A stretch of 64,000 nt of DNA from assembly GCF_000202635.1 (NCBI RefSeq), contig NC_015125.1:868001-932000 (forward strand), written 5' to 3'. The notes under the pieces were generated by a model, which worked only from the letters and a program-made list of their open reading frames with translations, did no database searches and was not told the DNA's origin. The translations under genes and the position numbers were made by a program. The DNA is from Microbacterium testaceum StLB037. GTDB taxonomy: Bacteria; Actinomycetota; Actinomycetes; Actinomycetales; Microbacteriaceae. Below are positions 19,291 through 58,719 of the stretch, in pieces. Each line of letters opens with the position of its first letter. The first letter of the stretch is position 1.

Positions 19291-19363
19291 AATCCCCGCG
19301 GTTCGCGGGTCCGCGACCGGGTGTCTCCGCGTCGCGTCGACAAAAATCTGAAAGGCTTCCATC

Positions 19364-20689
19364 GTGCGTTTGTCTGTAGTGGGGTGCGGTTACCTGGGTG
19401 CGGTGCACGCGGCGGCGATGGCTTCCATCGGCCATGAGGTCGTGGGCATCGACGTCGACGAGCGCAAGATCACCGCGCTGAGCAAGGGCGAGGCGCCGTT
19501 CTTCGAGCCCGGCCTTCAGGAGATCCTGACCGAGGGCATCGCGTCGGGTCGCCTGTCCTTCACGACCGACATGGCGGCGGCGCAGGGCGCGAAGGTCCAC
19601 TTCATCGGCGTGGGGACCCCGCAGCAGGCGGGTGGCTACGCCGCCGACCTCACGTACGTCAACGCCGCCGTCGACGGCCTGCTCCCCTACCTCTCGGAAG
19701 GCGATCTGGTCGCGGGCAAGTCCACTGTTCCGGTCGGCACGGCGGCGACGCTCGCCCCGCGCGTCTCCGAAACGGGGGCGACGCTCGTGTGGAACCCGGA
19801 GTTCCTCCGCGAGGGCTGGGCCGTTCAGGACACCATCGACCCCGACCGTCTGGTGGCCGGCGTCCCCTTCTCCGAGGGCGCTGCGACCCCCGAGGGCGAA
19901 CGCGCGGCGCAGATTCTCCGCGAGGTCTACCACCCCTCGATCGCCAAGGGCACTCCGTTCATCGTCACCGACTACGCGACGGCTGAGCTCGTGAAGGTGT
20001 CGGCCAACGCCTTCCTCGCGACGAAGATCAGCTTCATCAACGCGATCGCGGAGATCGCCGAGGTCACCGGTGCGGACGTGACGACCCTCGCCGACGCGAT
20101 CGGCCACGACGCGCGCATCGGTCGCCGGTTCCTCGGTGCGGGCATCGGCTTCGGTGGCGGCTGCCTGCCGAAGGACATCCGCGCGTTCTCCGCTCGCGCC
20201 GAAGAGCTCGGCCGCGGAGAATCGGTCGCGTTCCTGCGCGAGATCGACGCCATCAACCTGCGTCGGCGCGATCGCGCCGTCGAGCTGACGAGCGAGGCCC
20301 TCGGCGGGTCCGTCTTCCAGAAGAAGGTCACGGTGCTGGGCGCCGCCTTCAAGCCCCACAGCGACGACATCCGCGACTCCCCCGCTCTCGACGTGGCGGT
20401 CCGTCTGCACGGTCTCGGTGCCGACGTCACCCTCACCGACCCCGCGGCGATCGAGAACGCTCAGCGCGTCCACCCGCAGCTGACGTACGTGCACGACCGC
20501 GACGAAGCTCTGCGGGAGGCCGACGCCGTGATCGTCGTGACCGAGTGGGACGAGTACCGCCACCAGCTCGACCCCGCGTACGCGGCGACGCTGACGCGCG
20601 GTCACGTCGTGATCGACGGCCGCAACTGCCTCGACGCGGCCGCCTGGCGCGCCGCCGGGTGGACCTACCACGGCATGGGTCGCCCCTGA
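19364..20689 (+). CDS. UDP-glucose 6-dehydrogenase
   Basis: Oxidises UDP-glucose to UDP-glucuronate with NAD+ (UDP-glucose/GDP-mannose dehydrogenase family). 441 residues: N-terminal Rossmann motif GCGYLGAVHAA, STVPVGTA, NPEFLREGWAV, the catalytic cysteine in GFGGGCLPKDIRAF and a C-terminal UDP-binding domain ending in TEWDEY and DGRNCLD. GTG start with GAAAGG upstream. Placed directly after the priming sugar transferase, so it probably provides glucuronic acid for that polymer. Confidence 0.95.
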   Translation: MRLSVVGCGYLGAVHAAAMASIGHEVVGIDVDERKITALSKGEAPFFEPGLQEILTEGIASGRLSFTTDMAAAQGAKVHFIGVGTPQQAGGYAADLTYVNAAVDGLLPYLSEGDLVAGKSTVPVGTAATLAPRVSETGATLVWNPEFLREGWAVQDTIDPDRLVAGVPFSEGAATPEGERAAQILREVYHPSIAKGTPFIVTDYATAELVKVSANAFLATKISFINAIAEIAEVTGADVTTLADAIGHDARIGRRFLGAGIGFGGGCLPKDIRAFSARAEELGRGESVAFLREIDAINLRRRDRAVELTSEALGGSVFQKKVTVLGAAFKPHSDDIRDSPALDVAVRLHGLGADVTLTDPAAIENAQRVHPQLTYVHDRDEALREADAVIVVTEWDEYRHQLDPAYAATLTRGHVVIDGRNCLDAAAWRAAGWTYHGMGRP

Positions 20690-20701
20690 TCTCAGCGCTC
20701 G

Positions 20702-20731
20702 AAGACGCCCCGGCCCCGGCCGGGGCGTCTT
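20702..20731 (+). terminator. Terminator downstream of UDP-glucose dehydrogenase
   Basis: A 14-bp perfect GC-rich stem (AAGACGCCCCGGCC with its complement) with a 2-nt centre begins 13 bp after the stop and is followed by TTCGTCG. Confidence 0.85.
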
Positions 20732-20820
20732 TCGTCGTCGCGGCACCGCCCCCTGTGGACAGACCCCTCCACCGTTCGCGTGCGCATGTAAGAATGCCCT
20801 CTCACCCCGAAGGACATCCC

Positions 20821-20988
20821 ATGCTCTCCTCTCTTCCCCGCCCCCTCGTCCCGGAGCCGGCATACGACGACAGTGACCTCGGCTTCCCTCCCCGATGCTC
20901 GTCCTGCCTCCTGCCGATGGTCGAAAAGCTCACCGGCCGCTGCGCGCATTGGCGCTGCCCCGACTGCGGACATCTCCGTATCTCGTGA
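20821..20988 (+). CDS. Small zinc-ribbon protein
   Basis: 55-residue protein with two CxxC knuckles, CSSC and CPDC, separated by 21 residues, so probably a single zinc ribbon. It is preceded by GAAGGA 6 nt before the ATG and by TAAGAAT as a plausible -10 near 20788. Function unknown; it stands alone between a terminator and the next promoter. Confidence 0.65.
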   Translation: MLSSLPRPLVPEPAYDDSDLGFPPRCSSCLLPMVEKLTGRCAHWRCPDCGHLRIS

Positions 20989-20997
20989 CGCGACGGC

Positions 20998-21003
20998 TAC
21001 GCT
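20998..21003 (+). promoter_or_regulatory. -10 box of the AarF/UbiB-like gene
   Basis: TACGCT, 6 nt before the GTG at 21010. Confidence 0.5.
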
Positions 21004-21009
21004 GACCCC

Positions 21010-23004: not shown

Positions 23005-23115
23005 AGAATCGCCGAACTTTCGTGGCGCGGATGCGCCGCGTCCTGGGCGGGCGCCGCTACTGTGAGCAGCAGTCACCCTGTCGTTGCACCACCCGGACTC
23101 CAAAGGAGAAGTCCC

Positions 23116-23253
23116 ATGGTCGTCGCTTTCCTGGTTGCTCTGTTCGCCTGGATCGTCATCTCGCTCGCTGCCGGCATCGGCCTCGGCCGGATGATCGCGC
23201 GCTCCGAGACCGAAGACGGCCGTGTGCCGTCGCTCGTCACACGGAGCCTCTGA
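23116..23253 (+). CDS. 45-residue single-pass membrane protein
   Basis: One hydrophobic helix (VVAFLVALFAWIVISLAAGI) and a short charged tail. AAAGGAGAA lies 6 nt before the ATG. No known family recognised; the strong ribosome binding site and good helix argue that it is expressed. Confidence 0.55.
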   Translation: MVVAFLVALFAWIVISLAAGIGLGRMIARSETEDGRVPSLVTRSL

Positions 23254-23346
23254 CCCCACCCGTCGGCGCCTTGTCCGGTACGGGCACTGCGGGTCCATCG
23301 TGAGGCATGGCCCGCCCCGCACGCGCTCGCGACCGGCGAGGACTCG

Positions 23347-24018
23347 TCACACCCGAGTCTCGTGAGCGGAGGCGCGCGTCGCGGCCCGATACTCTCGGCG
23401 GGTTGTCGGCCGTGCGGATGAACCCCCATCCGTCCCGGGCTGCGCGAGTCCCGCCATCGCCTCGACGATGATGTCGACGGCGCTCGTCGCTTGTCGCTCG
23501 AACGCGGCCCAGACGGGCGCGTCCTGGCCGATCGGATCGAGGATGTCGTCCTCGCTCGCCGAGACGTGACGATCGCCGAAGCGTGCGCGCGCGGTCGCCG
23601 AGAGAACCGACGACCACTCGTTCAGCGAACCTGCCGGCCGAGCGATGTCGAGCAGCCTGGCGAACTCGCGGATCGTGAAGACGGCCCCTACGAGGTCGGG
23701 ACGCATCCCCAAGACGACGCGCCGGTGCGCGCGCTCGGCGCACAGCACGGCCGAGTTCTCCCTCAGCATCCGCTCGTCCAGACGACGCGTGCGATGCGCA
23801 TCCAGGGAGACGCCGTGCGCACGCGCGAGGGCCCGCGCTCCCTCCTCCGCGGGGCCTCCGGGACGAGCCGCTGTACCGGCGCTCTCGAGTTCGATCCCGG
23901 ACAGCCCCCTCCTCGTCAGCCTCTCCCGCAGGAGGTTCTCGACGAACGGCGATCGGATGGCGTTCGCCGTGCACACCACGATGATGTGCGGTCCGCCCGG
24001 GGCACGGTATGACGACAT
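23347..24018 (-). CDS. Low-molecular-weight protein tyrosine phosphatase-like
   Basis: 223 residues, longer than the usual 150 because of a C-terminal tail of about 35 residues. The P-loop is VCTANAIRSPF with nucleophile C16 and R22 (C-x5-R), and the general-acid region is DDILDPIGQD (DP motif). In capsule and exopolysaccharide loci such enzymes dephosphorylate the Tyr tail of Wzc-type kinases; one is encoded at 26839-28506. The ATG at 24018 matches the family start. The CTANAIRS loop departs from the usual CxGNxCRS, so the assignment to the arsenate reductase/LMW-PTP superfamily is secure but the substrate is not. Confidence 0.82.
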   Translation of the reverse strand: MSSYRAPGGPHIIVVCTANAIRSPFVENLLRERLTRRGLSGIELESAGTAARPGGPAEEGARALARAHGVSLDAHRTRRLDERMLRENSAVLCAERAHRRVVLGMRPDLVGAVFTIREFARLLDIARPAGSLNEWSSVLSATARARFGDRHVSASEDDILDPIGQDAPVWAAFERQATSAVDIIVEAMAGLAQPGTDGGSSARPTTRREYRAATRASAHETRV

Positions 24019-24181
24019 CGGAAAGACTCCTCCCGCGCGACGACACCGCGCCCGGCCAGTAAAACGCAGGTACCGACTGCTCCCGACCCGCCGTTCGCCT
24101 CCGTGGCCTCCGACCTTCGCGGGTGAACGCATCGGGCCGCCACGCACGACGACTTCCGTCCCGAATCCCGCAGCGGTGCCC

Positions 24182-24577
24182 TCAGCCGTCGAACCCCTCG
24201 GCGCGGTCGCGGGGCGGCGCCTCGCCACCTACGCCAGCAGCACCGTCGTCGACCGCTGCCGCCATGTCAGGGGCGTCGAGCAGCAGCCGACCCAGCGTGC
24301 GTGCGCCGGCGGCATCGATGGCGATGCTGCAGTCCGCGCCGAACTCCAGCGCGACCCACGACTCGGCGTCGTCGGGGCGGCGGACGACTCCCACCTCGAT
24401 CTCCGTGAAGACGCCGGCGCCTCCGACGAGTCCGTCGCGCACGCGCGCCGCGAAGCCGGTTCCCGCGCTCCGGTGAGTCTCATCGGCGGGATGCACCGTC
24501 TCACCGTGGTCCGTCGTGCACCACACGAACGCACACCGAGTCGCCTGCGCACGATGCTCTGCCGGAATTCGATTCAT
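24182..24577 (-). CDS. DUF6907-like hypothetical protein
   Basis: 131 residues. The N-terminal CAFVWCTTDHGETVHPADETHRS pattern, Cys/His/Asp spaced as in a small metal-binding site, fits actinobacterial DUF6907 proteins, whose role is unknown. The rest is a two-layer beta pattern (EIEVGVVRR, WVALEFGADCSIAID) followed by a helix (GARTLGRLLLDAPDM). The ATG at 24577 has AGAGG 8 nt upstream; a GTG at 24586 is an alternative. It follows the XRE regulator by 93 bp on the same strand and may be its partner. Confidence 0.65.
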   Translation of the reverse strand: MNRIPAEHRAQATRCAFVWCTTDHGETVHPADETHRSAGTGFAARVRDGLVGGAGVFTEIEVGVVRRPDDAESWVALEFGADCSIAIDAAGARTLGRLLLDAPDMAAAVDDGAAGVGGEAPPRDRAEGFDG

Positions 24578-24670
24578 GCCTGACACCTCTCTCGCAGGAC
24601 CGCCGCGTTCTGGACGGCCCCATCATCGGTGGGCACGCCCAAAGTGAACCACGACCCTCCGACATCGAGC

Positions 24671-24946
24671 TCAACGCCCGGGTGCCACGCCTCCCGGACG
24701 CGCGGGGATCAGTTCCTCGAGGGACATCTCCAGAACCTCGGCGAGCGCCACGAGCGTCTTGAGACGGGGGTTCGCCGGCGTCCCCGGGTTCGACTCGCCC
24801 TTCTCGAGCTTGCGATAGGTGAACGTCGCGAGCCCGGCCGCGTGGGCCACGTGCTCCTGCGACAGCCCTCGCTGCGCCCGCGCGCGGAGGAGCCGCTTCC
24901 CCAATTCGCGCGCGAAGTCGTTCCAGGGGTCGGCCTCGTCGGTCAT
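24671..24946 (-). CDS. XRE-family transcriptional regulator
   Basis: 91-residue Cro/CI-type DNA-binding protein: helix-turn-helix at about 14-70 with LGKRLLRARAQRGLSQEHVAHAAGL, TFTYRKLEKGESNP and LVALAEVLEMSLEELI. No effector domain, so it probably regulates itself and the DUF6907-like gene downstream. CATG-containing inverted repeats lie just upstream of its start. Confidence 0.88.
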   Translation of the reverse strand: MTDEADPWNDFARELGKRLLRARAQRGLSQEHVAHAAGLATFTYRKLEKGESNPGTPANPRLKTLVALAEVLEMSLEELIPARPGGVAPGR

Positions 24947-24976
24947 CGTCCCAGCTTGATCGGAGAGCCACGCTCA

Positions 24977-24994
24977 CATGAACATGTTTACATG
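24977..24994 (-). promoter_or_regulatory. Candidate XRE operator (CATG repeats)
   Basis: CATGAACATGTTTACATG contains three CATG units; CATGT-TT-ACATG at 24983-24994 is an inverted repeat. It lies 31-48 bp upstream of the XRE start codon and is strikingly AT-rich for this genome. Confidence 0.45.
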
Positions 24995-25296
24995 CCACTC
25001 CTTCCTCGGAGTCCGTCACCGCTCGCCGACGCGAGGAGGTGAGTGATCTCTCTCCGGGGGTGAGCGGGCAGGGGATCAGCGAAGGCACGCCTCGCACTCG
25101 CCACCGCGGCCGTCGATCCCGCGCCGATGCAGGCGTCCGGCGCGGACCCCCGCCCGGCCGTTTCACCCGCGCGCGGGCCTACCGAGCCACGACGGCCGGT
25201 GGCGAGTCGAGTGGCACAGTTCCGAGGCCCGCCGCATGTCGCGTGTCCCGGCGGCGGCCCCTTTCCTGACCCTCGGGCACCGTCAGCGGAGCATCT
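24995..25296. other. Intergenic region upstream of the second sugar transferase
   Basis: About 300 bp without a convincing gene. GGGTGA at 25058-25063 and TCACCC at 25163-25168 are half-sites of the palindrome seen upstream of the first transferase, here 100 bp apart. No clear -10 or Shine-Dalgarno precedes the ATG at 25297. One short frame across it has Arg-rich, low-quality composition and is rejected. Confidence 0.4.
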
Positions 25297-26769
25297 ATGA
25301 ACCTCGCCGTCTCAACTTTGTCTTCACCATCCCCCTCGACATCGACGTCGGCCGCTCGCTCGCCGGGGACGTCATGGCAGCGCCGCTATGCGCGGATCCT
25401 CACCGTGGTCGACACCCTCGTCGTCCTGGCGTCCGTGTTCGGAGCACAACTTCTCTGGCTGGGGCCGCACCCGTTGGAGGTCAGCTCGGCGCCCGTCAGC
25501 TACACCACCGTCTCGGTCCTGCTCTCCGGCGCGTGGCTCCTCGCTCTGAGTCTCAGCGGAAGCCGGCATCCCCGTGTCCTCGGGCACGGCATCACGGAGC
25601 ACCGTCTGATCCTCGGGGCCTCGCTGCAGCTCTTCGGCCTCGTCGCCATCGGCGCGTACCTCGGCAGCATCGACCTGTCTCGGGGTTACTTCCTGCTGAG
25701 CCTGCCCGCCGGCACCACCGTCCTCCTCGGCGCGCGGATGGCGTGTCGATCCTGGCTGGTCGCTCAGAGGCGCAAGGGGTCCATGGCGACGCGCGTGGTG
25801 TTGCTGGGCGGAGAGCAGGAGAACCGCCGGGTCGCCGCCGAGCTGGACCGCCACCCCGCCGTGGGCTTCACGGTCGTGGGAGCGCACACCCTCACCGCAG
25901 AGGCGGTCGCCGGCGGCTGGACTGACCGTCACTCCCGCCGACTGCGGGAGCGTCTCGATGACCTGCGGGCGGACAGCGTGCTCGTGACGGGAGGATCGCA
26001 TCTCCAACCGCAAGACATCAGACGCATCGGCTGGATCCTCGAGCCGGGTCGGCAGCACCTCATCGTCGCCGTCAATCTCGCCGATGTCGCGGGACCGCGC
26101 ATCCACACCCGCCCCGTCGCGGGTCTTCCCCTGGTCCACATCGAGACGCCGCAGTACTCCACGACGCAGAAAGTGCTCAAGCGCGCCTTCGACATCATCG
26201 GCTCGGCGACACTCATCCTGCTCCTCTCCCCGGTCCTGCTCGCATTGGCCGCGCTGGTCCGGATGTCGAGCCCGGGCCGCGTGCTCTATCGCCAGCAGCG
26301 TGTCGGTCAGGGTGGGTCGCACTTCGGGATGCTCAAGTTCCGGTCGATGGTCGACGGCGCGGATGCGCGCCTGCACGAGCTGCTCGCCGAGCAGGGGCGC
26401 GAAGGGACGCCTCTGTTCAAGGTCGAGAACGACCCCCGCATCACGAGCGTCGGACGATGGCTGCGCAAGTACTCACTCGACGAACTGCCCCAGCTGTTCA
26501 ACGTGCTGAGTGGGCATATGAGCCTGGTCGGACCGCGGCCCCAGCGCGACGCGGAGGTCGCGTTCTACGACGACGACGCCCGCCGACGCCTCATCGTCCG
26601 TCCGGGTATGAGCGGGCTGTGGCAGGTCAGCGGACGCTCGGCGCTCGCGTGGGACGACGCCATCCGACTCGACCTGTTCTACGTCGAGAACTGGTCGTTG
26701 GTCGGGGACATCGTCATCCTCGCGCGCACCTTCAAGGCGGTGATCGCTCCCGGAGCGACCGCGCATTGA
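25297..26769 (+). CDS. Polyprenyl glycosylphosphotransferase (exopolysaccharide priming sugar transferase), copy 2
   Basis: 490-residue paralogue of the protein at 17731-19290 with the same layout: N-terminal transmembrane helices (about 35-150), a nucleotide-binding-like middle domain, a membrane segment and the catalytic domain with YRQQRVGQGG, LKFRSMVDGA, the DELPQLFNV motif, SLVGPRPQRD and RPGMSGLWQVSGRSAL. Having two primers suggests two polymers or alternative first sugars. It ends at an exceptional hairpin and is convergent with the tyrosine-kinase gene. Confidence 0.92.
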   Translation: MNLAVSTLSSPSPSTSTSAARSPGTSWQRRYARILTVVDTLVVLASVFGAQLLWLGPHPLEVSSAPVSYTTVSVLLSGAWLLALSLSGSRHPRVLGHGITEHRLILGASLQLFGLVAIGAYLGSIDLSRGYFLLSLPAGTTVLLGARMACRSWLVAQRRKGSMATRVVLLGGEQENRRVAAELDRHPAVGFTVVGAHTLTAEAVAGGWTDRHSRRLRERLDDLRADSVLVTGGSHLQPQDIRRIGWILEPGRQHLIVAVNLADVAGPRIHTRPVAGLPLVHIETPQYSTTQKVLKRAFDIIGSATLILLLSPVLLALAALVRMSSPGRVLYRQQRVGQGGSHFGMLKFRSMVDGADARLHELLAEQGREGTPLFKVENDPRITSVGRWLRKYSLDELPQLFNVLSGHMSLVGPRPQRDAEVAFYDDDARRRLIVRPGMSGLWQVSGRSALAWDDAIRLDLFYVENWSLVGDIVILARTFKAVIAPGATAH

Positions 26770-26770
26770 C

Positions 26771-26832
26771 CACACGCGAGAGGGGGAAGGGCGCCGATCT
26801 GCGGATCGGCGCCCTTCCCCCTCTCGCGTGTG
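26771..26832. terminator. Bidirectional 29-bp perfect hairpin
   Basis: Positions 26771-26799 and 26804-26832 are exact inverted repeats of 29 bp around the 4-nt loop TGCG, between the convergent transferase and kinase genes (stops at 26769 and 26839). No T tract follows on either side. It works as a two-way terminator on position alone; the length and perfection are unusual. Confidence 0.85.
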
Positions 26833-26838
26833 AGTGTG

Positions 26839-28506
26839 TCAGGGACGACGTCGGCGACGCACGCCGACCGCCGCTTCCTGCGCGGAGACGGCGGGTTTCG
26901 TCGCCACGACCGCGCTTTCGCGGTCTTCGCCCGTCGTGTCACCCGATTGCCCTCCTGCCGTCCTCCGCTGCGAGAGGGTGCGCAGTCCACTGACGTTGTC
27001 AGGGGGCAGGGCCGCACGGCGGCGCGGACCCGGGTCCGCCACGGCCTCCGCGTCGTCGTCGGGCCGACGCTTCGCGCTCCCGAACCACCCCCGCCGCCAC
27101 CAGGATCGTCGCGCCCCTGACGCAGCGCCGTACCCGTAATAGCCGGCGTACTGCGACCCGTAGTAGCTCGAATCGACGCCGCGGAGCGGGACACGGTTCA
27201 AGACGACGCCGAGGAGCCGGCCGCGCGTCTTGCCGATGTTGTCCGACGCGCGCACGAGCATGTCGTCCGTCGTGCGCCCCGCCGTGACCACGAGGACAGC
27301 GCCGTCGGCCCAGCTCGCGATCACCGCGGCGTCGGCGACCGCGAGAGTCGGCGGCGAATCGATGACGACGATCATGTCGTCGGACAGTCTTCGCGCGAGC
27401 TGCTGCATGCGCTGCGAGCCGACCATCTCCGTCGGGTTGGGCGGCGTGCGCCCCGCGGCGACCACGAAGAGTCGGCCGTGTTCGTCCACCTGATGGGCGA
27501 CCTGTTCGATCTGCGCGCGCCCGGCGAGGACATCCGACAGCCCCACGTCATCCGAGAAGCCGAACATCCCGCCCAGGACAGGGCGACGCATGTCCGCGTC
27601 GATGAGGATCACCGACCGACCTGTGGCCGCAATGCTCACCGCGAGGTTCGCCGCGGTGGTCGACTTGCCGTCTCCGGGAAGCGGGCTGGTGATCACGATG
27701 ACCTTCGCCGGGTGGTCGACATCGACGTACTGGAGGTTGGTGCGCAGCTCACGCATCGCCTCCTTGTGCGCGAACGATCCGCGGCCGTCTTTGATGTCGT
27801 CGAACGAGAAGACCGCGCGTCCGGAGGCGAGCTCTTTGTCGACCGGCAGCACACCGACCACGGACGTGTCCACCGCTTCCGTGATGTCGCGGGCCGCACG
27901 CAGACGGCGATCGAACGCCCGCCGCACGAGCGCGAACACGACGCCCAGGATCGCGCCGGCGATCGCGCCGATCGCCACGTTCAGACGCACGTTCGGAGAC
28001 GATGGCGACGTGGGGAGTCGAGCCGAATCCCCCGCCACCAGTCGGACCGCGCCCTGCCCCGAACCCGCAGAGTTCAAACCGTCGACCTGCTTCGTCATTC
28101 CGCGGATCCACGCCTCGGCGAGGTCTCGGGCGGCCTCCGGCGTCGGGCCCGCCGCATCCACACGAACATTGACCGTGTCCACCGGGTTGGACACCTGGAT
28201 GCGCTGCACGAGCGACTCCGGGCTGTCCGACAGGCCCAGATCCTCTTTCGCCGCTTCCGCGACGCTGCGCCAGTACCCCATGTCGATGAACGACTTGACC
28301 TTCGACAACGCCAGCTGGTCACCCGCCAGAGCCGCGCCGGTCGAGTTGTCCGATGACATCGCGGCGACGTATCCGCTCGCGTCGGCGGTGTACACCCGGG
28401 GCTGAAGCGCACTCCACCCCAACCCGGCGAGGCCTCCGACCACGGTCAGGGCGACGATCGCCTTCCAGTAGGCCCGCAAGACGCGAACCACCCTCTGCAT
28501 GTCCAC
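26839..28506 (-). CDS. Wzc-like bacterial tyrosine kinase / polysaccharide co-polymerase
   Basis: 555 residues. An N-terminal Wzz-type chain-length domain is bounded by two transmembrane helices (about 15-33 and 175-195). It is fused to a cytoplasmic BY-kinase domain with Walker A SPLPGDGKST (274-283), Walker A' LIDADMRR and Walker B VIDSPP. A tyrosine cluster at 448-459 (six Tyr in 12 residues) is the likely autophosphorylation site, followed by a basic and disordered tail. Such proteins control length and export of surface polysaccharide. GTG start with AAAGG about 9 nt upstream. Its counter-enzyme may be the phosphatase at 23347. Confidence 0.92.
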   Translation of the reverse strand: MDMQRVVRVLRAYWKAIVALTVVGGLAGLGWSALQPRVYTADASGYVAAMSSDNSTGAALAGDQLALSKVKSFIDMGYWRSVAEAAKEDLGLSDSPESLVQRIQVSNPVDTVNVRVDAAGPTPEAARDLAEAWIRGMTKQVDGLNSAGSGQGAVRLVAGDSARLPTSPSSPNVRLNVAIGAIAGAILGVVFALVRRAFDRRLRAARDITEAVDTSVVGVLPVDKELASGRAVFSFDDIKDGRGSFAHKEAMRELRTNLQYVDVDHPAKVIVITSPLPGDGKSTTAANLAVSIAATGRSVILIDADMRRPVLGGMFGFSDDVGLSDVLAGRAQIEQVAHQVDEHGRLFVVAAGRTPPNPTEMVGSQRMQQLARRLSDDMIVVIDSPPTLAVADAAVIASWADGAVLVVTAGRTTDDMLVRASDNIGKTRGRLLGVVLNRVPLRGVDSSYYGSQYAGYYGYGAASGARRSWWRRGWFGSAKRRPDDDAEAVADPGPRRRAALPPDNVSGLRTLSQRRTAGGQSGDTTGEDRESAVVATKPAVSAQEAAVGVRRRRRP

Positions 28507-49491: not shown

Positions 49492-49521
49492 CCGGGCACG
49501 CTCAGCGCGGGGCGTGCCCGG
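49492..49521 (+). terminator. Terminator of the F420 oxidoreductase gene
   Basis: A 10-bp perfect stem CCGGGCACGC with a 10-nt loop followed by TTTCG. It overlaps the last codons of the convergent XRE gene. Confidence 0.7.
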
Positions 49522-50371
49522 TTTCGATCACCCACTGCTCGAGCCGCCACGCCGGAATCCGGAACACCCGCGCCACGTCGGCGACGGCGTGGCCGCCTTC
49601 GACGATGGATGCCACGGCGAACTCCTGCAGGGAGCGGAAGTCACGGCCGGCCAGCGCGCCGGTCCGCAGGTCGGAGAACGTCCGGGGCGCGGCCTTCGCG
49701 GGGGAACCCGGGGCCACGAAGACGTACGCGGAATTCTCGCGCATCCCGTGGGCGAGCGCGTAGTCGTGCGCGCGCGTCGCGGCCGGGCTCGCGCCGTGCG
49801 GCAAGACCGCGGCCGGGGGCGCCGCCACAGGCGGAACGGGGGCGGACACCGCGAGGGCCACGGGCTCCGGCTCCGACGCGGCGACCATCACGGGGACGGG
49901 CTCCGGCTCCGACGCGACGACCGCCGCGGGCACGACCCACGGAGCGGGCGGGAGTGGCCCGCCCCACACCTTCTCGGTCGCCTCGAACACCGGCTCCGCG
50001 GAGACGCCCCCCGACGGCTCGGACGCGCTGGCCCAGGGAGCGGGAGGGAGGTCTCCGCCCCACGTCACGGCGCTCGGGACGACGTACGGGCTCGACGGCT
50101 CGGCATCCTGATCGAGGTGGTTCCTCGCGGACGGGTCCGCGAAGAGGTCGGCGAGGCCGATCTCGAAGGTTTCGGCGAGCGCGAGGAGCGTCGCCAACGA
50201 TGCGGCGGTGCGTCCCGCCTCCACGCCGCGAAGGCGGCCCTCCGACAGTCCCGCTTCGTAGGCGAGATCGCTCAGCGACAGGCCGCGGTCGCGCCGCAGA
50301 CCCCGCACCCGGTCGGCCAGCGCCCGGAGCACTCCCTCGAGGCGGTCGTCGGGATCCAGCTCGTCGCTCAT
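49502..50371 (-). CDS. XRE regulator with Pro-rich linker and C-terminal helix-turn-helix-like twin domain
   Basis: 289 residues. The N-terminal Cro/CI helix-turn-helix (about 15-75) has GLSLSDLAYEAGLSEGRLRGVEAGR. A Pro/Ala/Val linker (about 95-215) carries internal repeats (WGGxLPPAPW twice, ASEPEPV twice). The C-terminal domain (229-281) matches the tail of the membrane protein encoded next to it: 34 of 53 aligned residues identical. The pattern VADVARVFRIPAWRLEQWV resembles a transposase-type helix-turn-helix. Its ATG overlaps the stop of that gene by 4 bp. Likely a regulator working with it; no such two-domain architecture is known to me. Confidence 0.8.
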   Translation of the reverse strand: MSDELDPDDRLEGVLRALADRVRGLRRDRGLSLSDLAYEAGLSEGRLRGVEAGRTAASLATLLALAETFEIGLADLFADPSARNHLDQDAEPSSPYVVPSAVTWGGDLPPAPWASASEPSGGVSAEPVFEATEKVWGGPLPPAPWVVPAAVVASEPEPVPVMVAASEPEPVALAVSAPVPPVAAPPAAVLPHGASPAATRAHDYALAHGMRENSAYVFVAPGSPAKAAPRTFSDLRTGALAGRDFRSLQEFAVASIVEGGHAVADVARVFRIPAWRLEQWVIETGHAPR

Positions 50372-52482
50372 CGGGTCCCCCTCGTCGTGGCCGCGCGCTC
50401 GGCGAGGACATCATCCACCCACTGCTGAAGACGCCACTGCTGAATCCGGAACAGTCGCGAAATGGTCGACACGGAATACCCTCCTTCGACGACGGCGGCG
50501 ATGGCGAACTCGCGGAGCGACGCGAAGGTGCGCCCCTCGAGGGCGCCCGTACGAAGATCCGCGAACGATCGGGGCCGCGAGGTCCCCGGGGCACGCGGCC
50601 CGCGGGGACGCGGTGGAACCGTGTGCGGGGTACCGAGAGAGCCACCGGTCGCGTCCGCGACGGGCGGGGCCGCGATCGGCCGAGCAGGGGCCGCGACGCC
50701 CGCCACCGCGGGAACGGCTTCCGGGACGGGCAGGGCGTGATAGGACGCGACCTGCTCCTCGCCGTGCCGAAGCAGAGCCTCGCGGAGAAGCTCGCGCAGC
50801 CGTCGATGTTCTCGACGCCGCTTCCACAGCACGGGCACCCCGATCGCGGGGACGAGCAGCACGAGCGCCCACATCCACATCATGGGGTGCTCGTTCATCC
50901 ATCCGACCCAGGCCCACTGGAAGGTCCAGTCGCTCTCGTCGTTGCCGGCCTGCATCGAACGCGAACCCGACCACATCGCGACCGCATCCTGCCCGACCCC
51001 GTGGAAGGTGTTCCCGGTGATGTCGGCGCGCGCGTCCTCCGCGAGCTCGACGGCCGATCCCGTGGTCGCGGTCAGGTCGTTCCCGCTCATCACGACCGCG
51101 GCCCCGGTGATCTCGGTCGCGATCCGACGCCCCACGATGCGCGAGTCCGAGACGGTGGCATCCGTGATCCGGCCGGCGATGTCCAAGCCGCGCAGCTCGC
51201 TCGATGAGAGGTCGGCGTTCGTCACCGCCAGTCCCGTGGACGGTCCCTCGACGAGGACGGCCGTGCGCGCCTCGTCGACCGTCGACTGTCGGATCTCGGT
51301 CTTGTCGGTCGAGATCACGCGGACGCCGCCGTCCCGGTTGTCGTGCACGCGCGAGTCCACCATCGTGAAATCGCTCGACGGCGTCAGCCCGTACCCGCCC
51401 GTCGTCGGTCCGTCGGCCAGCGCGGATCCGTCGACCCGAACGCCCCAGCCGGCTGCTCCCTCCACCGTGACCCCGGTGAGACGGAGAGCCCGCGACTGGC
51501 GGGACAGCGCGATCCCGTCCGAGCCCGAATCACGGACGCTGCTGCGCTCCACGCGGAAGTCGTGACCGCCGTTGGTCAGTTCGATGCCGGTGAGGGTCGA
51601 GTCGCTGATCGTCGAGTCGGAGATGCCGACTCCGGTGCTCTCCGACGCGAAGAACCCGTAGTGGAGTCCCGTCGTCGTCGAGTTCGCGAGCTGCGCGGTG
51701 GCATCCACCGTGCCGCTGCCCGTGATCGCGAGTCCCCCGGTGCGCCCGCTCCAATAGCCGAGGTCCGCGAAGTCGGCGAAGCTCGCCGCGAGGACGCCGT
51801 CTCGAACGCGGACGTACGCGCGTCCGTCAGCCTCGTCCGTGTCGGGGGCGGCGATCGTGTCGTCCCACGACGTGATCCGGAACGGAGAGCCGTCGGCGCC
51901 GCCGAACCGCACGGTGCCGCCCCACCCGACGATGCTCGTGCTCGCTGTGGGAGAGCTCGTCATCCGCAGCGTCGCGCCGGGGGCGGCGAGGTTCAGGTCG
52001 GCTCCCGACCGGACGACGACGTTCCGCTGCAGCGTGTAGGTGGTCGCGTCGTCCTGGCGGACCGCGCCGAGAGCGACGAGGTCGGCCAGGCCGTACCCCG
52101 CGGGTTGGCCGTTCTTGGCGCCGAGCACGACGGTGTTCCACGAGTCGATCAGCGCGGGGTCGGCGCTCCCCAGCGCGGCGACGGCGGACAGGCGCGTGTC
52201 TTCGGCGGCCACGCGATCGGCCGCCGTCTGCGGCTCGGCCCCGGGTTCGGCCGCATCGGAGCTCGCGGTCGGCGAGGGCGCGGGTCCGATGAGGGCGGCG
52301 CTCGAGCGGGCATCGTTGTTCAGCCAGGGCAGGAATGTGCCGGTGTGCACGAAATTGCCCACGAGGATCACTCCCGCGACGAGCACGACCACGGCGACCA
52401 GCATGAAGACGCGCGCGACACCGCGGAGGGCGAAGTGACTGTCTCCGCGCTCCTGCGCCGTGATCGCACCGTCGTCAGCCAT
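50368..52482 (-). CDS. Two-pass membrane protein: extracytoplasmic beta-helix and cytoplasmic helix-turn-helix-like tail
   Basis: 704 residues. The N-terminus is cytoplasmic (20 residues), helix 1 at about 24-44, a large extracytoplasmic region to 533, helix 2 at about 534-553 (MMWMWALVLLVPAIGVPVLW), then a very basic stretch, a Pro-rich linker and the 53-residue domain at 637-689 shared with the XRE regulator. The region 140-500 is a right-handed parallel beta-helix of pectate-lyase/mannuronan-epimerase type, with regular VxIsxStIsds turns and repeated G-L/I-x-L/V rungs. Seen: topology and shared domain. Inferred: senses or binds a polysaccharide outside and signals inside. Overlaps the GT2 gene by 8 bp. 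Confidence 0.82.
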   Translation of the reverse strand: MADDGAITAQERGDSHFALRGVARVFMLVAVVVLVAGVILVGNFVHTGTFLPWLNNDARSSAALIGPAPSPTASSDAAEPGAEPQTAADRVAAEDTRLSAVAALGSADPALIDSWNTVVLGAKNGQPAGYGLADLVALGAVRQDDATTYTLQRNVVVRSGADLNLAAPGATLRMTSSPTASTSIVGWGGTVRFGGADGSPFRITSWDDTIAAPDTDEADGRAYVRVRDGVLAASFADFADLGYWSGRTGGLAITGSGTVDATAQLANSTTTGLHYGFFASESTGVGISDSTISDSTLTGIELTNGGHDFRVERSSVRDSGSDGIALSRQSRALRLTGVTVEGAAGWGVRVDGSALADGPTTGGYGLTPSSDFTMVDSRVHDNRDGGVRVISTDKTEIRQSTVDEARTAVLVEGPSTGLAVTNADLSSSELRGLDIAGRITDATVSDSRIVGRRIATEITGAAVVMSGNDLTATTGSAVELAEDARADITGNTFHGVGQDAVAMWSGSRSMQAGNDESDWTFQWAWVGWMNEHPMMWMWALVLLVPAIGVPVLWKRRREHRRLRELLREALLRHGEEQVASYHALPVPEAVPAVAGVAAPARPIAAPPVADATGGSLGTPHTVPPRPRGPRAPGTSRPRSFADLRTGALEGRTFASLREFAIAAVVEGGYSVSTISRLFRIQQWRLQQWVDDVLAERAATTRGTR

Positions 52483-53752
52483 GGGACGTCTCCGTCCCCT
52501 GCGACACGAGCCCGAGGCTCTCGGCGGACTGCCCCTCGCCGCCGAGGCTCGCCTCCGTCTGCCCCTCGCCGCCCTGACTATCGGCCGACCGGGTCAGCCA
52601 TCCCTGCTTGTTCATCGTGAAGAGGGCGTAGACCTTGACCGGAAGCGAGATGAAGATGATGACGAGCGTCACGAGCGGAAGGAGGACGATGTCCTCGGGG
52701 CGACGCCACAGGTGCGACATGCCGCGGATGCCACGACCGACGAAGAGCCACACGATGGCGAGCCCGAGTCCGAGGAGGGGATGCTCGGCCCTCGTCGCCA
52801 GCACGACGTACGCCAACGCGACGAACATGGTGAACGGGGTCAGCAGGATCTGCATCATCGTGATCTGCGAGATGAGCGGCACCTTGAAGACCCAGCCGTG
52901 CCGGATCGCGGTCAGGTAGCAGCGGAACGAGTTCCGGCTCCAGCGCACCCGCTGCTTGACGAAGGCGCGGAACGTGCCGGGGAACATCGAGAGGGCGCGG
53001 GCGCTGTCCTGGTGCGCGACGCGGAAGCCCTGGGAGAGCACGAGCCATGTCATCCGGCCATCGTCGCCCGCGATGCATTCCTTGCCGAAGAAGATCTCGT
53101 GCTCGAGGTCTTCCACGCGCGGTTGGATCACCGAGGTGCGGTACGCCGCGGTCCGCCCGGAAGCGCAGATGATGCCGCCGAAGCGCCCCATCGCCGGGGC
53201 GTAGTCCGTGTACCGGAGGTCGATGATCCAGTCGGCCACGCGACGCCACACGCTCGACTTCGGCAGATAGACGTTCTGTCGTGTACTGACCGCTCCGACC
53301 GCGGGATCGATGAACGGCATCTGCACGGCATCCAGCATCCCGTCCTCCCACGCCGTGTCGGAGTCGACGAAGAGGATCAGCTCGGTGTCGACCATCCGGA
53401 TGCCGACCCCCAACGCCGAGCGCTTCCCCCGGTGGTGGAACATCACGACGTCCACGGACGGCAGGCCGAGCGCCTCGATCCGGGACTGCGCCTCCACATC
53501 GGCCACGTCGAGGACGATGACGATCCGGGACGGGCCCTGCCGGACCCAGGTCTGCAGACAGCGCAACAGCACGTCGGGGTCCTCGTGGAACGAGGGCACG
53601 ACCACCGTGGTCGTCGTGCGGTAGAGGTTCTTCACGGGGCGCGCCGTCGCGGCGAGGATCTTGCGGACGAGCCAGAAACCCCACGAGACGATGCCGAGGT
53701 AGCCGAACGGCAGCACCCACATCAACTGCTCGCCGAAGGACGCGTCGGCCAT
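52475..53752 (-). CDS. Processive GT2 polysaccharide synthase (hyaluronan/cellulose synthase-like)
   Basis: 425-residue membrane glycosyltransferase. A helix (about 8-28) precedes the GT2 domain with VVVPSFHEDPDVLL, the D in VLDVADV, the metal motif VDSDTAW, the catalytic GDDGRMTWLVLS and the processivity motif KQRVRW (QxxRW), followed by four C-terminal helices. The tail carries a GGEGQ repeat. There is no PilZ domain. This is the organisation of HasA/NodC/alginate Alg8-type synthases; the polymer cannot be told from sequence. GAGGGGA precedes the ATG at 53752 by 5 nt. Confidence 0.88.
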   Translation of the reverse strand: MADASFGEQLMWVLPFGYLGIVSWGFWLVRKILAATARPVKNLYRTTTTVVVPSFHEDPDVLLRCLQTWVRQGPSRIVIVLDVADVEAQSRIEALGLPSVDVVMFHHRGKRSALGVGIRMVDTELILFVDSDTAWEDGMLDAVQMPFIDPAVGAVSTRQNVYLPKSSVWRRVADWIIDLRYTDYAPAMGRFGGIICASGRTAAYRTSVIQPRVEDLEHEIFFGKECIAGDDGRMTWLVLSQGFRVAHQDSARALSMFPGTFRAFVKQRVRWSRNSFRCYLTAIRHGWVFKVPLISQITMMQILLTPFTMFVALAYVVLATRAEHPLLGLGLAIVWLFVGRGIRGMSHLWRRPEDIVLLPLVTLVIIFISLPVKVYALFTMNKQGWLTRSADSQGGEGQTEASLGGEGQSAESLGLVSQGTETSHG

Positions 53753-53824
53753 CACTCTCCCCTCGCGCGTTCGGGTAACGCGATTCGATGCCCGGGGGAG
53801 ACACTGAAGGCTACCGCGTACAGG

Positions 53825-54826
53825 TCACCGACAGGGGATGTTCCCCGCGGACGCGCCCCCGGGGACGCTGTTGTCGCACGAGACGACATTCCCCGCCGAG
53901 CGCGCGTCCCCCACCAGATGGACGCCCACTCCGCCCGCTCCCGGCTGCAGAGTGCTGGTCGCGACCGTGTTGTCCGACCCCCACGGCGAGACGATCACGT
54001 GCACGGACACGGCATCCACCGGCCCCGTGACGGTGCTCCCCTCGATCGACCAGCCCGAACCCTTGAGGTCGACGGCGCTGTCCACGACGGCGTCCGGGCC
54101 GACCGCGAGGACGGAGCCGCGGACGATCCCCCCGGTCGTGCCTTCTTTGACGTCGAGCGCCTCGGCCGTGGTGTCCCGCACCTCCAGCCGCTCGAAGACA
54201 TTGCGATCGCTGCGATCCGGCTCGCACGAGGTGTACCGGCACCAGTTCGCCTCGGCCGAGCCCACGTACACGCCCTCGCCGTACTTCGCGTCCGTGAGAC
54301 CGGTGCGCTCGACGACGGTGTCCTCGACGTGATTGTCGCTGCTCGCGGCGCGAAGGTGCAGCCCTTCCTGCCCCACATCCGAGATGCGCAGGCGCGCGAG
54401 CTCGGTGTGGGAGCTGGCATCCAGGACCACACCCTTCTGTCCCCCGCGGACCGTCAGGTCGTGCACCTGCCAGTACGACGCTCCGTCGAGGTGGAGCGCG
54501 TAGCCGTCCTCCGCTCCCCCGGCGTCGAGGACGGTGCCCGCTACCCCGCACAGGACGATCGGGCGATCCGCCTGGCCGGACGTCGAGATGCGGAACCGCC
54601 CCGAGTAGGTCACCGGCGACAGTTGGAGGACGGCTCCCGGAGCCGCGGCATCCAGAGCACTCTGCAGGTTCTCCGCACCGGGCGGCACGTCGACCGCCCC
54701 CGGAGCGCACGGAGACACCGCCGGAGAGAGGGATGCCGCCGGCTCCGGCGCGCACCCCGCCAGCGCTGCACCCCCCGCGGCGAGCACGACGAGCAGCGCG
54801 AGCGAGGAGCGGGCGGCGCGAGACAT
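53825..54826 (-). CDS. Right-handed beta-helix lipoprotein
   Basis: 333 residues. Lipobox LAGC near residue 24, then a parallel beta-helix domain of the pectate lyase/chondroitinase-B-like fold (DLTVRGGQKGVVLDAS, LRISDVGQEGLHLRAAS) with many Asp and Arg facing out. Two Cys pairs near the middle (NWC..TSC) and at the C-terminus may form disulfides. Such proteins bind, epimerise or cleave polysaccharides. First gene of the operon with the GT2 synthase, which begins 72 bp downstream. Confidence 0.85.
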   Translation of the reverse strand: MSRAARSSLALLVVLAAGGAALAGCAPEPAASLSPAVSPCAPGAVDVPPGAENLQSALDAAAPGAVLQLSPVTYSGRFRISTSGQADRPIVLCGVAGTVLDAGGAEDGYALHLDGASYWQVHDLTVRGGQKGVVLDASSHTELARLRISDVGQEGLHLRAASSDNHVEDTVVERTGLTDAKYGEGVYVGSAEANWCRYTSCEPDRSDRNVFERLEVRDTTAEALDVKEGTTGGIVRGSVLAVGPDAVVDSAVDLKGSGWSIEGSTVTGPVDAVSVHVIVSPWGSDNTVATSTLQPGAGGVGVHLVGDARSAGNVVSCDNSVPGGASAGNIPCR

Positions 54827-54917
54827 CGCGTCGAGTATCTCAGCAGCCCGACGGCGACGCTCCCGGATCCCCGCTCTCGGGGAAGCGGTCCAGATCCGGG
54901 GCGCGCCGCCGTCCGGC

Positions 54918-55409
54918 TCAGGCTCCGTCGCGCAGGTCGCGGAAGAAGCTGTCGATGTGCGCGCGGAGGGCGTCGATGCGTCGATCGCGTGCCGCAGCGG
55001 CGTCGTGGCCGAGGTAGGCCGGCGGATCCAGGCGTCGGACGTTGCGCGAGCACTCGAAGTTCGCGCAGAGCAGGGTTCCGACGGTGTTGCCGGCGCGGCC
55101 CGCCTTGCCCGCGCGCCGCGCGGAGAAGAAGACGACGTCGTTCGGCAGGGTCACGTCGGCGCACCACGAGCACTGCGGGCGCGACCGCGTCGGCTGCTCG
55201 GCCTGGCGCAGTTGCAGCCCGACCGGTGTGCCATCGATCTCGGCGACGACGAACCCGAGGAGGGGCGTCTTGGGGTCACGCCATCCGAAATAGTCCAGGC
55301 GGTCCCAGTCGTTCGCCGCGAGATCGGTCGGGACGACGAGCGCGCTGCGTTCGCGCGTCGAGACGTTGACGAAGGAGGAGCGTACGGAGGCAGGGGTGAG
55401 AGCGTGCAT
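54918..55409 (-). CDS. FBP-domain (FusB/EF-G-binding-like) zinc-finger protein
   Basis: 163 residues. An N-terminal helical half (TPASVRSSFVNVS, LDYFGWRDPK) and a C-terminal treble-clef zinc finger with C-x2-C (CSWC) and the later Cys pair (CANFEC). The pattern fits actinobacterial FBP_C domain proteins related to the FusB group, which bind elongation factor G. No resistance phenotype is implied. The start at 55409 fits the family. Separated from the polysaccharide operon by 91 bp and probably independent. Confidence 0.83.
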   Translation of the reverse strand: MHALTPASVRSSFVNVSTRERSALVVPTDLAANDWDRLDYFGWRDPKTPLLGFVVAEIDGTPVGLQLRQAEQPTRSRPQCSWCADVTLPNDVVFFSARRAGKAGRAGNTVGTLLCANFECSRNVRRLDPPAYLGHDAAAARDRRIDALRAHIDSFFRDLRDGA

Positions 55410-57131: not shown

Positions 57132-57428
57132 ATGACGATCACGGACATGCCGCGGGTCACGACCGACGACGCAGACGTCGACGGGCTCCTCGCGCGCGCC
57201 GCCGACGGCGACCGACAGGCGTTCGGGATGTTCTACGATCTCACCGCCCCTCGCGTCTACGCGCTGCTGCTCGCCGTGACACGGGACGCGGCTCGCGCCG
57301 ACGCTCTGCTGGAAGAGGTGTACGTCGAGGCCTGGGAGCGCGCTGTGGTCCGCGGGATGCCACGCTGCCCCGCGCAGGAGTGGGTCGCGCTCCTGGCGCA
57401 CCGGCGCGCCGCGGACGCGAAGCTCTAA
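57132..57428 (+). CDS. Truncated ECF sigma factor-like protein (region 2 only)
   Basis: 98 residues. LLARAADGDRQAFGMFYDLT and RVYALLLAVTRDAARADALL match sigma-70 region 2 of SigK-type ECF factors. There is no region 4 for -35 recognition, and the protein ends soon after region 2. GAGGAGGGG precedes the ATG, so it is translated well. It may be an anti-regulator, a degraded factor, or bind core polymerase without promoter specificity. Its stop overlaps that of the convergent DUF7882 gene by 3 bp. Confidence 0.7.
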   Translation: MTITDMPRVTTDDADVDGLLARAADGDRQAFGMFYDLTAPRVYALLLAVTRDAARADALLEEVYVEAWERAVVRGMPRCPAQEWVALLAHRRAADAKL

Positions 57429-57748
57429 GCGGAGACGGCGGGCGACGTCTCCGCCGCCCCGATGTCGACGGTCAATCCGCCGGACGAGTTCGCCGAGTTG
57501 GCGTACGTCTGCAACAGGGTCGGATCGAGCATCTCCGGCTCGGTCTCGGCGAAGACGAACCGCAGCGGGATCGAGGGCTGGAGCCAGATGGTGCTCCGCC
57601 CGACCGATTCACCTTCGGGATGCCGCCACGACAGCGTGAAACTCTCTCCGCGTCGAAGCTTCGTCGCGATCACGACCTTGATGTGCGCGAGCACACGATC
57701 CGGCATGCGAATCGGGTCTGGGGAGGACCCGTAGAACAAGGAGCCCAT
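57425..57748 (-). CDS. DUF7882-type small protein (copy B)
   Basis: 107 residues, highly similar to copy A: MGSLFYGSSPDPIRM, KLRRGESFTLSW, RSTIWLQPSIPLRFVF. GGAAGGAGG precedes the ATG at 57748. Promoter with TAAAAT directly behind TACTAGATCGCCTAAC. Divergent from a MarR gene. Confidence 0.75.
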   Translation of the reverse strand: MGSLFYGSSPDPIRMPDRVLAHIKVVIATKLRRGESFTLSWRHPEGESVGRSTIWLQPSIPLRFVFAETEPEMLDPTLLQTYANSANSSGGLTVDIGAAETSPAVSA

Positions 57749-57938
57749 ATCGGGCCTCCTTCCGGAGATCGTGTCGAAGAAAATTTTACTAGATCGCCTA
57801 ACTATCACCTAGCGAAATAAGGGACTCGCCCGCGCCTTCGTCTGAACTACCGGCGACGACGCGAGATTCGTAGGCCTGCGTGAATCTCGTTCGCCTAACT
57901 AGACTGTCCGCTCGGGCGGTCAGGGCGACGGGAGAACG
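57749..57938. promoter_or_regulatory. Divergent promoter region with TCGCCTAACTA direct repeats
   Basis: The 11-bp sequence TCGCCTAACTA occurs at 57794-57804 and again at 57891-57901, one in front of each divergent gene. The first is embedded in TACTAGATCGCCTAAC, matched before copy A at 37915. Probable sites for the MarR protein encoded at 57939. Confidence 0.6.
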
Positions 57939-58398: not shown

Positions 58399-58719
58399 TC
58401 AGGCCGAGCGGACCTCGGGAGAATCGGCTTCCGGTTCGGCGATGACGCTCAACCCGTTGGCGGAACTCGCTTCGTGCATCAACTCGTCGATCCATCGCCT
58501 GTTCAGCTGGGGTGCGCGACTTCCGTAGAAGTGGAAGACGAGCGGAATGGACGGGTGAATCCAGAGCGTGCGCGTCCCGCTCCCGTCACCGACGGGGAAA
58601 TGGAACATGAAGGGCTCGCCGCGGCGCAGCTTGTTCATGAACACCATGCGCAGGTGGGAAAGCGTTCGATCCTCGATATCGAAGGAATGACCCAACGCGT
58701 TGTAAACCAGTTTTCCCAC
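58399..58719 (-). CDS. DUF7882-type small protein (copy C)
   Basis: 106 residues, more divergent than A and B: MGKLVYNALGHSFDIED, NKLRRGEPFMFHFPVG and TLWIHPSIPLVFHFYG, with a changed KLRRGE loop context. GTG start at 58719 behind a leaderless-type -10. Convergent with the MarR gene with 4 bp between the stops. Confidence 0.72.
   Translation of the reverse strand: MGKLVYNALGHSFDIEDRTLSHLRMVFMNKLRRGEPFMFHFPVGDGSGTRTLWIHPSIPLVFHFYGSRAPQLNRRWIDELMHEASSANGLSVIAEPEADSPEVRSA

Follow-up and report, generated by a model that had tools for sequence, protein, structure and literature searches.

A membrane-anchored beta-helix protein with a predicted cytoplasmic helix-turn-helix tail in a candidate exopolysaccharide gene row of Microbacterium testaceum

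Introduction

Transmembrane transcription regulators, which carry a DNA-binding-type domain inside the cell and another domain outside it on one polypeptide (the ToxR/CadC type and others), are widespread, with 50,302 of them counted in 9,673 genomes (PMC10269533). Among beta-helix enzymes, the structure of AlgG (4NK6; PMC4432689), the catalytic residues Y149, D152, H154 and D178 of AlgE (PMC8824271) and the roles of the active-site residues of PsAly (PMC6796002) have been described. A survey of biofilm polysaccharide operons places alginate operons largely in Pseudomonas (PMC7112194), and a study of Streptomyces synteny refers to beta-helix proteins only in passing (PMC13118837). Here we analyze a gene, P0001, in a 64,000-nucleotide stretch of M. 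testaceum StLB037 (contig NC_015125.1, positions 868,001 to 932,000; hereafter the window, in whose numbering coordinates are given). P0001 is predicted to join an extracytoplasmic beta-helix to a cytoplasmic helix-turn-helix (HTH) tail, and it stands in a row whose order is alginate-lyase-like probable lipoprotein, processive-type GT2 synthase, P0001, XRE regulator. We tentatively propose that it is a receptor for the polymer made by its own operon. Among the matches listed in a literature search whose coverage mostly excludes subscription journals, none concerned P0001, its tail or the gene row.

Results

Domain anatomy and predicted topology of P0001

The features located in the P0001 frame are the following.

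50368..52482, minus strand: P0001, a 704-amino-acid membrane beta-helix protein with a predicted cytoplasmic HTH tail
52363..52419, minus strand: transmembrane (TM) helix 1, residues 22-40, from hydropathy
50827..50883, minus strand: TM helix 2 (TM2), residues 534-552, followed by an Arg-rich stretch, from hydropathy and charge
50938..52095, minus strand: beta-helix region predicted to lie outside the membrane, roughly residues 130-515 (boundaries judged from conservation within the family), from Pfam and the AlgE4/AlgG profile match
51733..51762, minus strand: family motif LGYWSGRTGG, residues 241-250, from alignment columns
51574..51576, minus strand: Thr303, at the column of the epimerase catalytic His, from profile alignment
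50404..50574, minus strand: predicted cytoplasmic tail with an OrfA-type HTH, residues 637-693 (about 57 amino acids), from profiles

A preliminary description of this DNA had placed a gene at 50368..52482; those limits hold as one long frame, to which we add that the strand is minus. Long plus-strand frames overlap the region too (for example, 51343-52620), as is common in GC-rich DNA, and sequence conservation favors the minus-strand gene over them. The same description had proposed two TM helices (about residues 24-44 and 534-553) and an extracytoplasmic beta-helix, and both proposals agree with our results: hydropathy gave the segments listed above, the Pfam models Beta_helix (residues 250-422, E 3e-20) and NosD (residues 367-493, E 4e-11) matched above their cut-offs, and positive charge follows TM2. 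Among the homologs P0001-P0048, exactly two TM segments were found by hydropathy in 47/47 non-partial proteins (P0034, a partial sequence, was left out). In these 47 proteins the mean net charge is -1.7 before TM2 and +4.3 after it, and every one of them is richer in K/R after TM2 than before. Because positive charge concentrates after TM2, the HTH tail is predicted to lie inside and the beta-helix, predicted to be right-handed, outside. The motif residues L241, G242, G246, R247, T248 and G250 occur in 78/78 rows of alignment A1; the pattern LG[FY]WSGRTG was used in searching for relatives of P0001.

Absence of the epimerase-type catalytic histidine from tail-bearing proteins

A search of the PDB with the P0001 sequence alone returned nothing (best E 0.24), and epimerases were reached only with a family profile, the best matches of which were the mannuronan C5-epimerases 2pyg (AlgE4, E 3e-9) and 4nk8 (AlgG, E 5e-9). 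Of the features of a C5-epimerase, a right-handed beta-helix similar to AlgG/AlgE was thus found with the family profile, and the complete set of catalytic residues was not found. In both alignments, H154 of AlgE falls on Thr303 of P0001.

This column was compared in 226 aligned proteins (231 before five beta-helix matches shorter than 330 amino acids were dropped). His is present in 141/152 tail-less proteins vs 0/74 tail-bearing ones, and, with near-copies removed, in 110/118 vs 0/47. The 47 tail-bearing representatives have Thr (40), Ala (3), Ser (2) or Gly (2) instead. At the next column Arg occurs in 105/118 tail-less representatives and Asn in 35/47 of the tail clade. Since Arg mostly became Asn, a conserved substitution seems a better description than decay. 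In both groups, D214, R221 and R247 are nearly invariant. As for the other AlgE residues, the tail clade has Asp in 1/47 at the D152 column and in 37/47 at the putative D178 column, and Tyr is not among its six commonest residues at the Y149 column. Three tail-clade proteins without His were scored tail-less: P0034 and L022, which lie at contig ends (226 set only), and L026, whose frame is broken (both sets). His is likewise missing from seven further tail-less representatives, namely P0060, P0076, P0085, P0091, P0095, P0099 and L034.

Removal of near-copies and of pieces of 380 amino acids or less reduced the 226 proteins to 165 representatives. In a maximum-likelihood tree of these (quick search, SH-aLRT support only), the 47 tail-bearing proteins, which come from Microbacteriaceae and Nocardioides, form one group with support 100. 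The group includes one row scored as tail-less, L026, in which the tail is encoded in a different frame. The register of the His column is supported by a distant Glaciihabitans protein on a very long branch, since the His of its YGFDPHD motif aligns to the same column. In the Glaciihabitans locus L033 (350-3200), which contains a tail-bearing P0001 relative, there is also another GT2 gene (350-1507), and the beta-helix protein encoded after it has the YGFDPHD epimerase motif intact.

The tail resembles OrfA-type HTH domains

The P0001 tail alone (a 59-residue piece) matched HTH families at E 0.004-0.01, below cut-off, and the unrelated family CPSase_L_D3 at E 0.0055, similar to the HTH scores. 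When 24 diverse tails were compared with Pfam at E<=1, HTH_Tnp_1 was matched by 17 (best 6.5e-6), HTH_23 by seven (best 6.7e-6) and CPSase_L_D3 by four (best 0.0055). Among other tail proteins, L159 matched HTH_Tnp_1 at E 0.0014 (below cut-off), and L150 matched nothing at E 0.1. The tail profile had matches in 37 of 394 genomes of the class. Of 26 weaker matches (L096-L121), 22 resemble IS3 OrfA frames by eye, one of these occurring in eleven copies in one genome. Comparison of the tail profile with 11 IS3 OrfA-type HTHs by hhalign gave a probability of 96.9% (E 1.8e-10, over 45 columns), the 11 having been picked by the tail profile, so that the comparison is not wholly independent; the HTH profile with a conserved Trp in helix 3, characteristic of the IS3 OrfA type, is found in the tail. 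Because of the HTH_Tnp_1 matches, the OrfA-like weak matches and the hhalign probability, we read the tail, at the level of sequence, as an OrfA-type HTH plus a conserved extra arm.

Helix 2 is more basic in the tails (+1.9 in P0001-type proteins and +1.5 in XRE proteins vs -0.2 in OrfA-like HTHs). An anchored comparison gave near-neutral HTH cores in all three groups (-0.8 in other tail proteins), replacing the acidic recognition helix that a first look at charge had suggested. Two other candidates were rejected. A copy of the adjacent XRE HTH is contradicted by an hhalign probability of 0.5% for the tail against that domain, run as a control, and a chance extension by the presence of the tail on 47/48 of P0001-P0048, at identities down to 36%, the exception being partial.

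The tail is shared with the adjacent XRE regulator

In the source genome, the tail was found at E<=1 in two places only, P0001 and the adjacent XRE regulator.

49514..49687, minus strand: the XRE regulator's copy of the tail, about residues 229-286, with 59% identity over 61 amino acids (E 1e-22)

Profile searches found the tail on 76/77 XRE homologs (P0122-P0198), in addition to the P0001 homologs above, and on 0/73 more distant beta-helix proteins (P0049-P0121). Tails from Herbiconiux and Glaciihabitans scored only E 7e-5 to 1e-3 and then entered alignment A3, so that their later matches follow by construction. Across 198 Microbacterium genomes, 17 have a P0001 homolog (E<=1e-40) and 35 have the tail (E<=1e-8), all 17 being within the 35. 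A second tail protein occurs in 13/17 genomes with P0001, and a tail protein in 18/181 without it (odds ratio 29, Fisher p 4e-9, with kinship ignored). In some of the tail-only genomes (L151, L155, L160) an XRE-tail gene stands 0.25-1.2 kb from an FBP_C gene, and FBP_C also flanks the row studied here. Because the XRE-tail gene persists near FBP_C, the XRE regulator can be older than the rest of the row or can survive its loss.

In further Microbacterium genomes, other kinds of protein, as judged by eye, also have the tail at their C-terminus: some with one TM segment near the N-terminus, some small and of low complexity, and some XRE-like but not matched by the XRE query. Some small tail genes stand head to head with the dehydrogenase gene (L159, L162, L164) or, in L024 and L025, with the lyase gene, at distances of about 130-225 bases (estimated gene starts were used for L024 and L025). 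This is a usual place for a regulator, and we count it in favor of the receptor reading.

Several sequence features accompany these proteins. In the XRE regulator (49502-50371, minus strand) and its homologs, the linker between HTH and tail contains repeated WGG[DE]LPPAPW-like motifs, the first copy of which is nearly invariant in alignment A2. The small tail proteins have a different W-rich motif in common, DASLLWPDAHLLAEPPPGYQPLEMPAAWEP. A leader, about CCTCACCCGAAGAGGACGTC, is conserved before the small tail gene starts (L159:7330-7600, L162:8380-8600, L164:8560-8840, L024:5440-5680, L025:5470-5720), even in L025, where it stands in a different frame with respect to the start; part of it is probably a ribosome-binding site.

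The gene row and its conservation

The neighbors of P0001 in the row, together with an unlinked dehydrogenase gene, are listed below.

53825..54826, minus strand: beta-helix uronate lyase, PsAly-like (PDB 6kfn, E 4e-39), probably a lipoprotein (lipobox LAGC by eye)
52475..53755, minus strand: processive-type GT2 glycosyltransferase (NodC/hyaluronan-synthase-like), with an 8-base overlap with P0001
49502..50371, minus strand: XRE-family regulator of 289 amino acids, last gene of the putative operon, with a 4-base overlap with P0001
54827..54839, minus strand: GATACTCGACGCG, directly 5' of the lyase ATG, the probable -10 element of a leaderless promoter
19364..20689, plus strand: nucleotide-sugar (UDP-glucose/GDP-mannose type) dehydrogenase, a candidate precursor enzyme, unlinked here

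The layout, with its overlaps of 8 and 4 bases, suggests putative co-transcription of the row. The GT2 protein matched the NodC model at E 3e-38 (below the cut-off of that model) and hyaluronan synthases at E 8e-20 or weaker. In the lyase and its homologs, with PsAly positions transferred via the alignment with 6kfn, K128, H154, R156, E181, Y184, E216, D219, K221 and K252 are kept in 87/87 sequences, the window's included; D250 (83), H278 (84) and Q276 (74; Ser in the window's lyase) are less strict. Matches shorter than 180 amino acids or with E above 1e-15 were omitted from this alignment. A promoter-like element, GATACTCGAC[GC]CG, abuts the lyase ATG in 10/10 loci examined (L019 and L022 do not hold the region), and has one site in the window vs 0.67 expected by chance with one mismatch allowed. 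Since the conserved element stands directly before the ATG, it is consistent with a leaderless lyase transcript.

Scanning a single genome of each species yielded 152 relatives, and the locus counts refer to the best 80 of the 152. A GT2 gene lies at most 1.6 kb upstream on the same strand in 71/80 loci. In six of the nine misses the match lies no more than 700 bases from where the available sequence begins, L026 and L044 have none, and L028, matched solely by its tail, does have a GT2 gene. A lyase homolog is present anywhere in the locus in 74/80, and a nucleotide-sugar dehydrogenase in 54/80, two of these being only 28-29% identical (L026, L030). No dehydrogenase homolog was found in the 11 closest loci (L012-L022), and that of the window is about 29 kb from the row. 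The GT2/beta-helix pair thus recurs across Actinomycetota, usually with a lyase and often with the dehydrogenase. Of the Pseudomonas-type alginate operon set, which consists of NDP-sugar dehydrogenase, GT2 synthase, epimerase and lyase, the row of the window has the GT2, the lyase and an epimerase-fold protein but not the dehydrogenase. We regard the row as a candidate polyuronate exopolysaccharide system, the polymer itself being deduced from the genes.

Some further observations concern the surroundings. Exopolysaccharide-type genes lie at 17731-28506 of the window, about 20-30 kb from the row, among them a polyprenyl glycosylphosphotransferase (17731-19290), the dehydrogenase (19364-20689) and, by eye, a chain-length-regulator-like protein (26839-28506). 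GC-rich inverted repeats precede the lyase promoter in several loci (54840-54918 in the window; L012-L016); by eye they resemble a terminator belonging to FBP_C, but one that lacks an obvious run of T. Two small neighboring minus-strand frames (57425-57808 and 58399-58719) are alike by eye, a DR.L.H...V-like stretch occurring in both. In Actinomadura and related genera (L053, L055, L059, L065, L066, L069, L076, L078, L080, L088, L090, L091 and others), two tandem tail-less beta-helix membrane proteins follow one GT2 gene and fall into two separate groups in the tree.

Discussion

We hypothesize that P0001 is a receptor of epimerase fold, devoid of catalytic activity, which recognizes the polymer made by its own operon and signals via its HTH tail, and we put the chance of this at somewhat below even. 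In this view P0001 belongs to the superfamily of mannuronan-epimerase-like beta-helix proteins, is anchored in the membrane and would have turned into a receptor. Placed outside, beside the GT2 synthase, its beta-helix would probably bind the newly extruded uronate-rich chain, which, with no catalytic-type His, it would not epimerize by the known mechanism. Occupancy by polymer would be relayed through TM2 to the OrfA-type HTH tail, and the tail would act on transcription of the polysaccharide genes, either directly or jointly with the adjacent XRE regulator bearing the same tail. Computation supports the arrangement of the genes, the topology signature, the families of fold and HTH, the tail common to both proteins, the missing His and the conserved active site of the lyase; co-transcription, the identity of the polymer, the ligand, signaling, DNA binding and its targets are inferred. 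A more specific version, in which a pseudoenzyme receptor arose on one branch of Actinomycetota by loss of the His and gain of a transposase-like HTH, senses nascent exopolysaccharide and is coupled to the XRE regulator via the shared tail, is possible but on balance unlikely.

Several points weigh against the receptor proposal. When the tail profile was run against PDB sequences, no match was significant, the best being a purine repressor at E 0.08. The mean charge of helix 3 is -0.55 in P0001-type and -0.37 in XRE proteins vs +1.12 in OrfA-like HTHs, and the preceding arm is less basic (+1.8 and +1.3 vs +2.8), although, with helix 2 the more basic in the tails, charge points clearly neither for DNA binding nor against it. 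Tail proteins occur in 18 genomes without P0001, and 4/17 genomes with P0001 have no second tail protein. A search for a shared operator before the row in 10 loci found no convincing word: the 6-mers CGCCGC and GCGGCA (2 vs 0.29 in mononucleotide shuffles) and the 7-mer CGCGACG (1 vs 0.13) are typical of GC-rich coding DNA. Alignment register can slip in beta-helix repeats. Of the 110 His-bearing representatives, 2 have the first Asp of the epimerase motif, and the seven residues most frequent at the column of the motif Tyr do not include Tyr; because the motif Tyr and first Asp are not kept, we do not call these relatives epimerases either. Finally, the tail was gained and His was lost on the same branch of the tree, so that the two count as one shared event.

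Three other explanations were weighed; they and the receptor proposal are not mutually exclusive, so that the probabilities attached to them need not sum to one. The best-surviving, although itself unlikely, is that P0001 is a synthase subunit or scaffold guiding the polymer beside the GT2 enzyme, with its HTH tail as a protein-docking module, in the manner of RodZ, whose HTH docks to MreB and not to DNA. The adjacency of GT2 and beta-helix genes across Actinomycetota, with or without the tail, would fit such a role, as would the non-basic helix 3 and the tails seen by eye on single-N-terminal-TM and small low-complexity proteins. Yet the tail profile is nearest to transposase HTHs and is common to the XRE regulator, and relatives with the same synthase have no tail. 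More doubtful is a coupling in which the P0001 tail pairs with the XRE tail, with no DNA binding, and the regulator is held at or released from the membrane according to polymer occupancy. The two genes overlap, share the tail and adjoin in 9/11 of the closest loci (L012-L022; L017 and L022 are cut by contig ends), but the four genomes with P0001 and no second tail protein, and the XRE-tail genes near FBP_C in genomes without P0001, speak against it. Equally doubtful is that P0001 still modifies or cleaves polymer by a different active site, its tail setting only level or place, since against the conserved Arg/Asp/Trp core motifs of the tail clade and the mostly conserved Thr-Asn where His-Arg stood stand the catalytic-type His in 0/47 tail-bearing representatives, no His reaching 80% over the 78 rows of alignment A1, and a separate lyase with an intact active site in the same row.

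With the receptor proposal as a working model, the remaining claims of the preliminary description can be placed. Its DNA-binding-looking inner domain is upheld at the sequence level by the HTH_Tnp_1 and hhalign matches, the lyase and synthase neighbors and the epimerase resemblance support a beta-helix that binds or modifies polysaccharide, and the domain order for which it proposed a search in relatives does recur in the P0001-P0048 set. A sensor with its own, putatively DNA-binding, output domain fits and is strengthened by the loss of His and by the tail on the XRE regulator. The operon context, the tail of the XRE regulator and the epimerases as closest beta-helix relatives were absent from that description.

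How cells gauge a polymer under extrusion is, to our knowledge, largely an open question, and we know of few studies of Gram-positive uronate polymers. The loci described here, those of Streptomyces included, combine a beta-helix lyase homolog with a synthase, a protein of epimerase fold and, in many cases, a nucleotide-sugar dehydrogenase, and make the latter question directly testable. Through the shared tail, a regulatory module specific to this lineage becomes accessible to study.

Compared with known systems, P0001 is like the ToxR/CadC-type and other transmembrane regulators in having a domain outside and a DNA-binding-type domain inside, and a TM helix and such a domain are indeed found together in its sequence. 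Because these regulators are widespread (PMC10269533), the new one-component architecture envisaged in the preliminary description goes too far as a claim about the class; the apparent novelty lies in the type of sensor and in the shared tail. Unlike the ToxR/CadC type, P0001 would carry a C-terminal HTH of the OrfA type, two TM helices and an outer beta-helix of epimerase ancestry. It resembles AlgG and AlgE4 in its right-handed beta-helix, best PDB profile matches and association with a GT2 synthase and a lyase, and differs from them in being anchored in the membrane at both ends and in that the motif Tyr, Asp and His are not conserved in the tail clade. The likeness to PsAly (PDB 6kfn; PMC6796002), with nine active-site residues in 87/87, belongs to the partner gene at 53825-54826 and its homologs, not to P0001, and implies neither the substrate nor the CAZy family. 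The HTH core of the tail aligns with that of IS3 OrfA, as described above, but the tail has an additional conserved arm before the HTH, PR[ST]F.DLR.G.L.GR, a slightly acidic helix 3 and no accompanying transposase.

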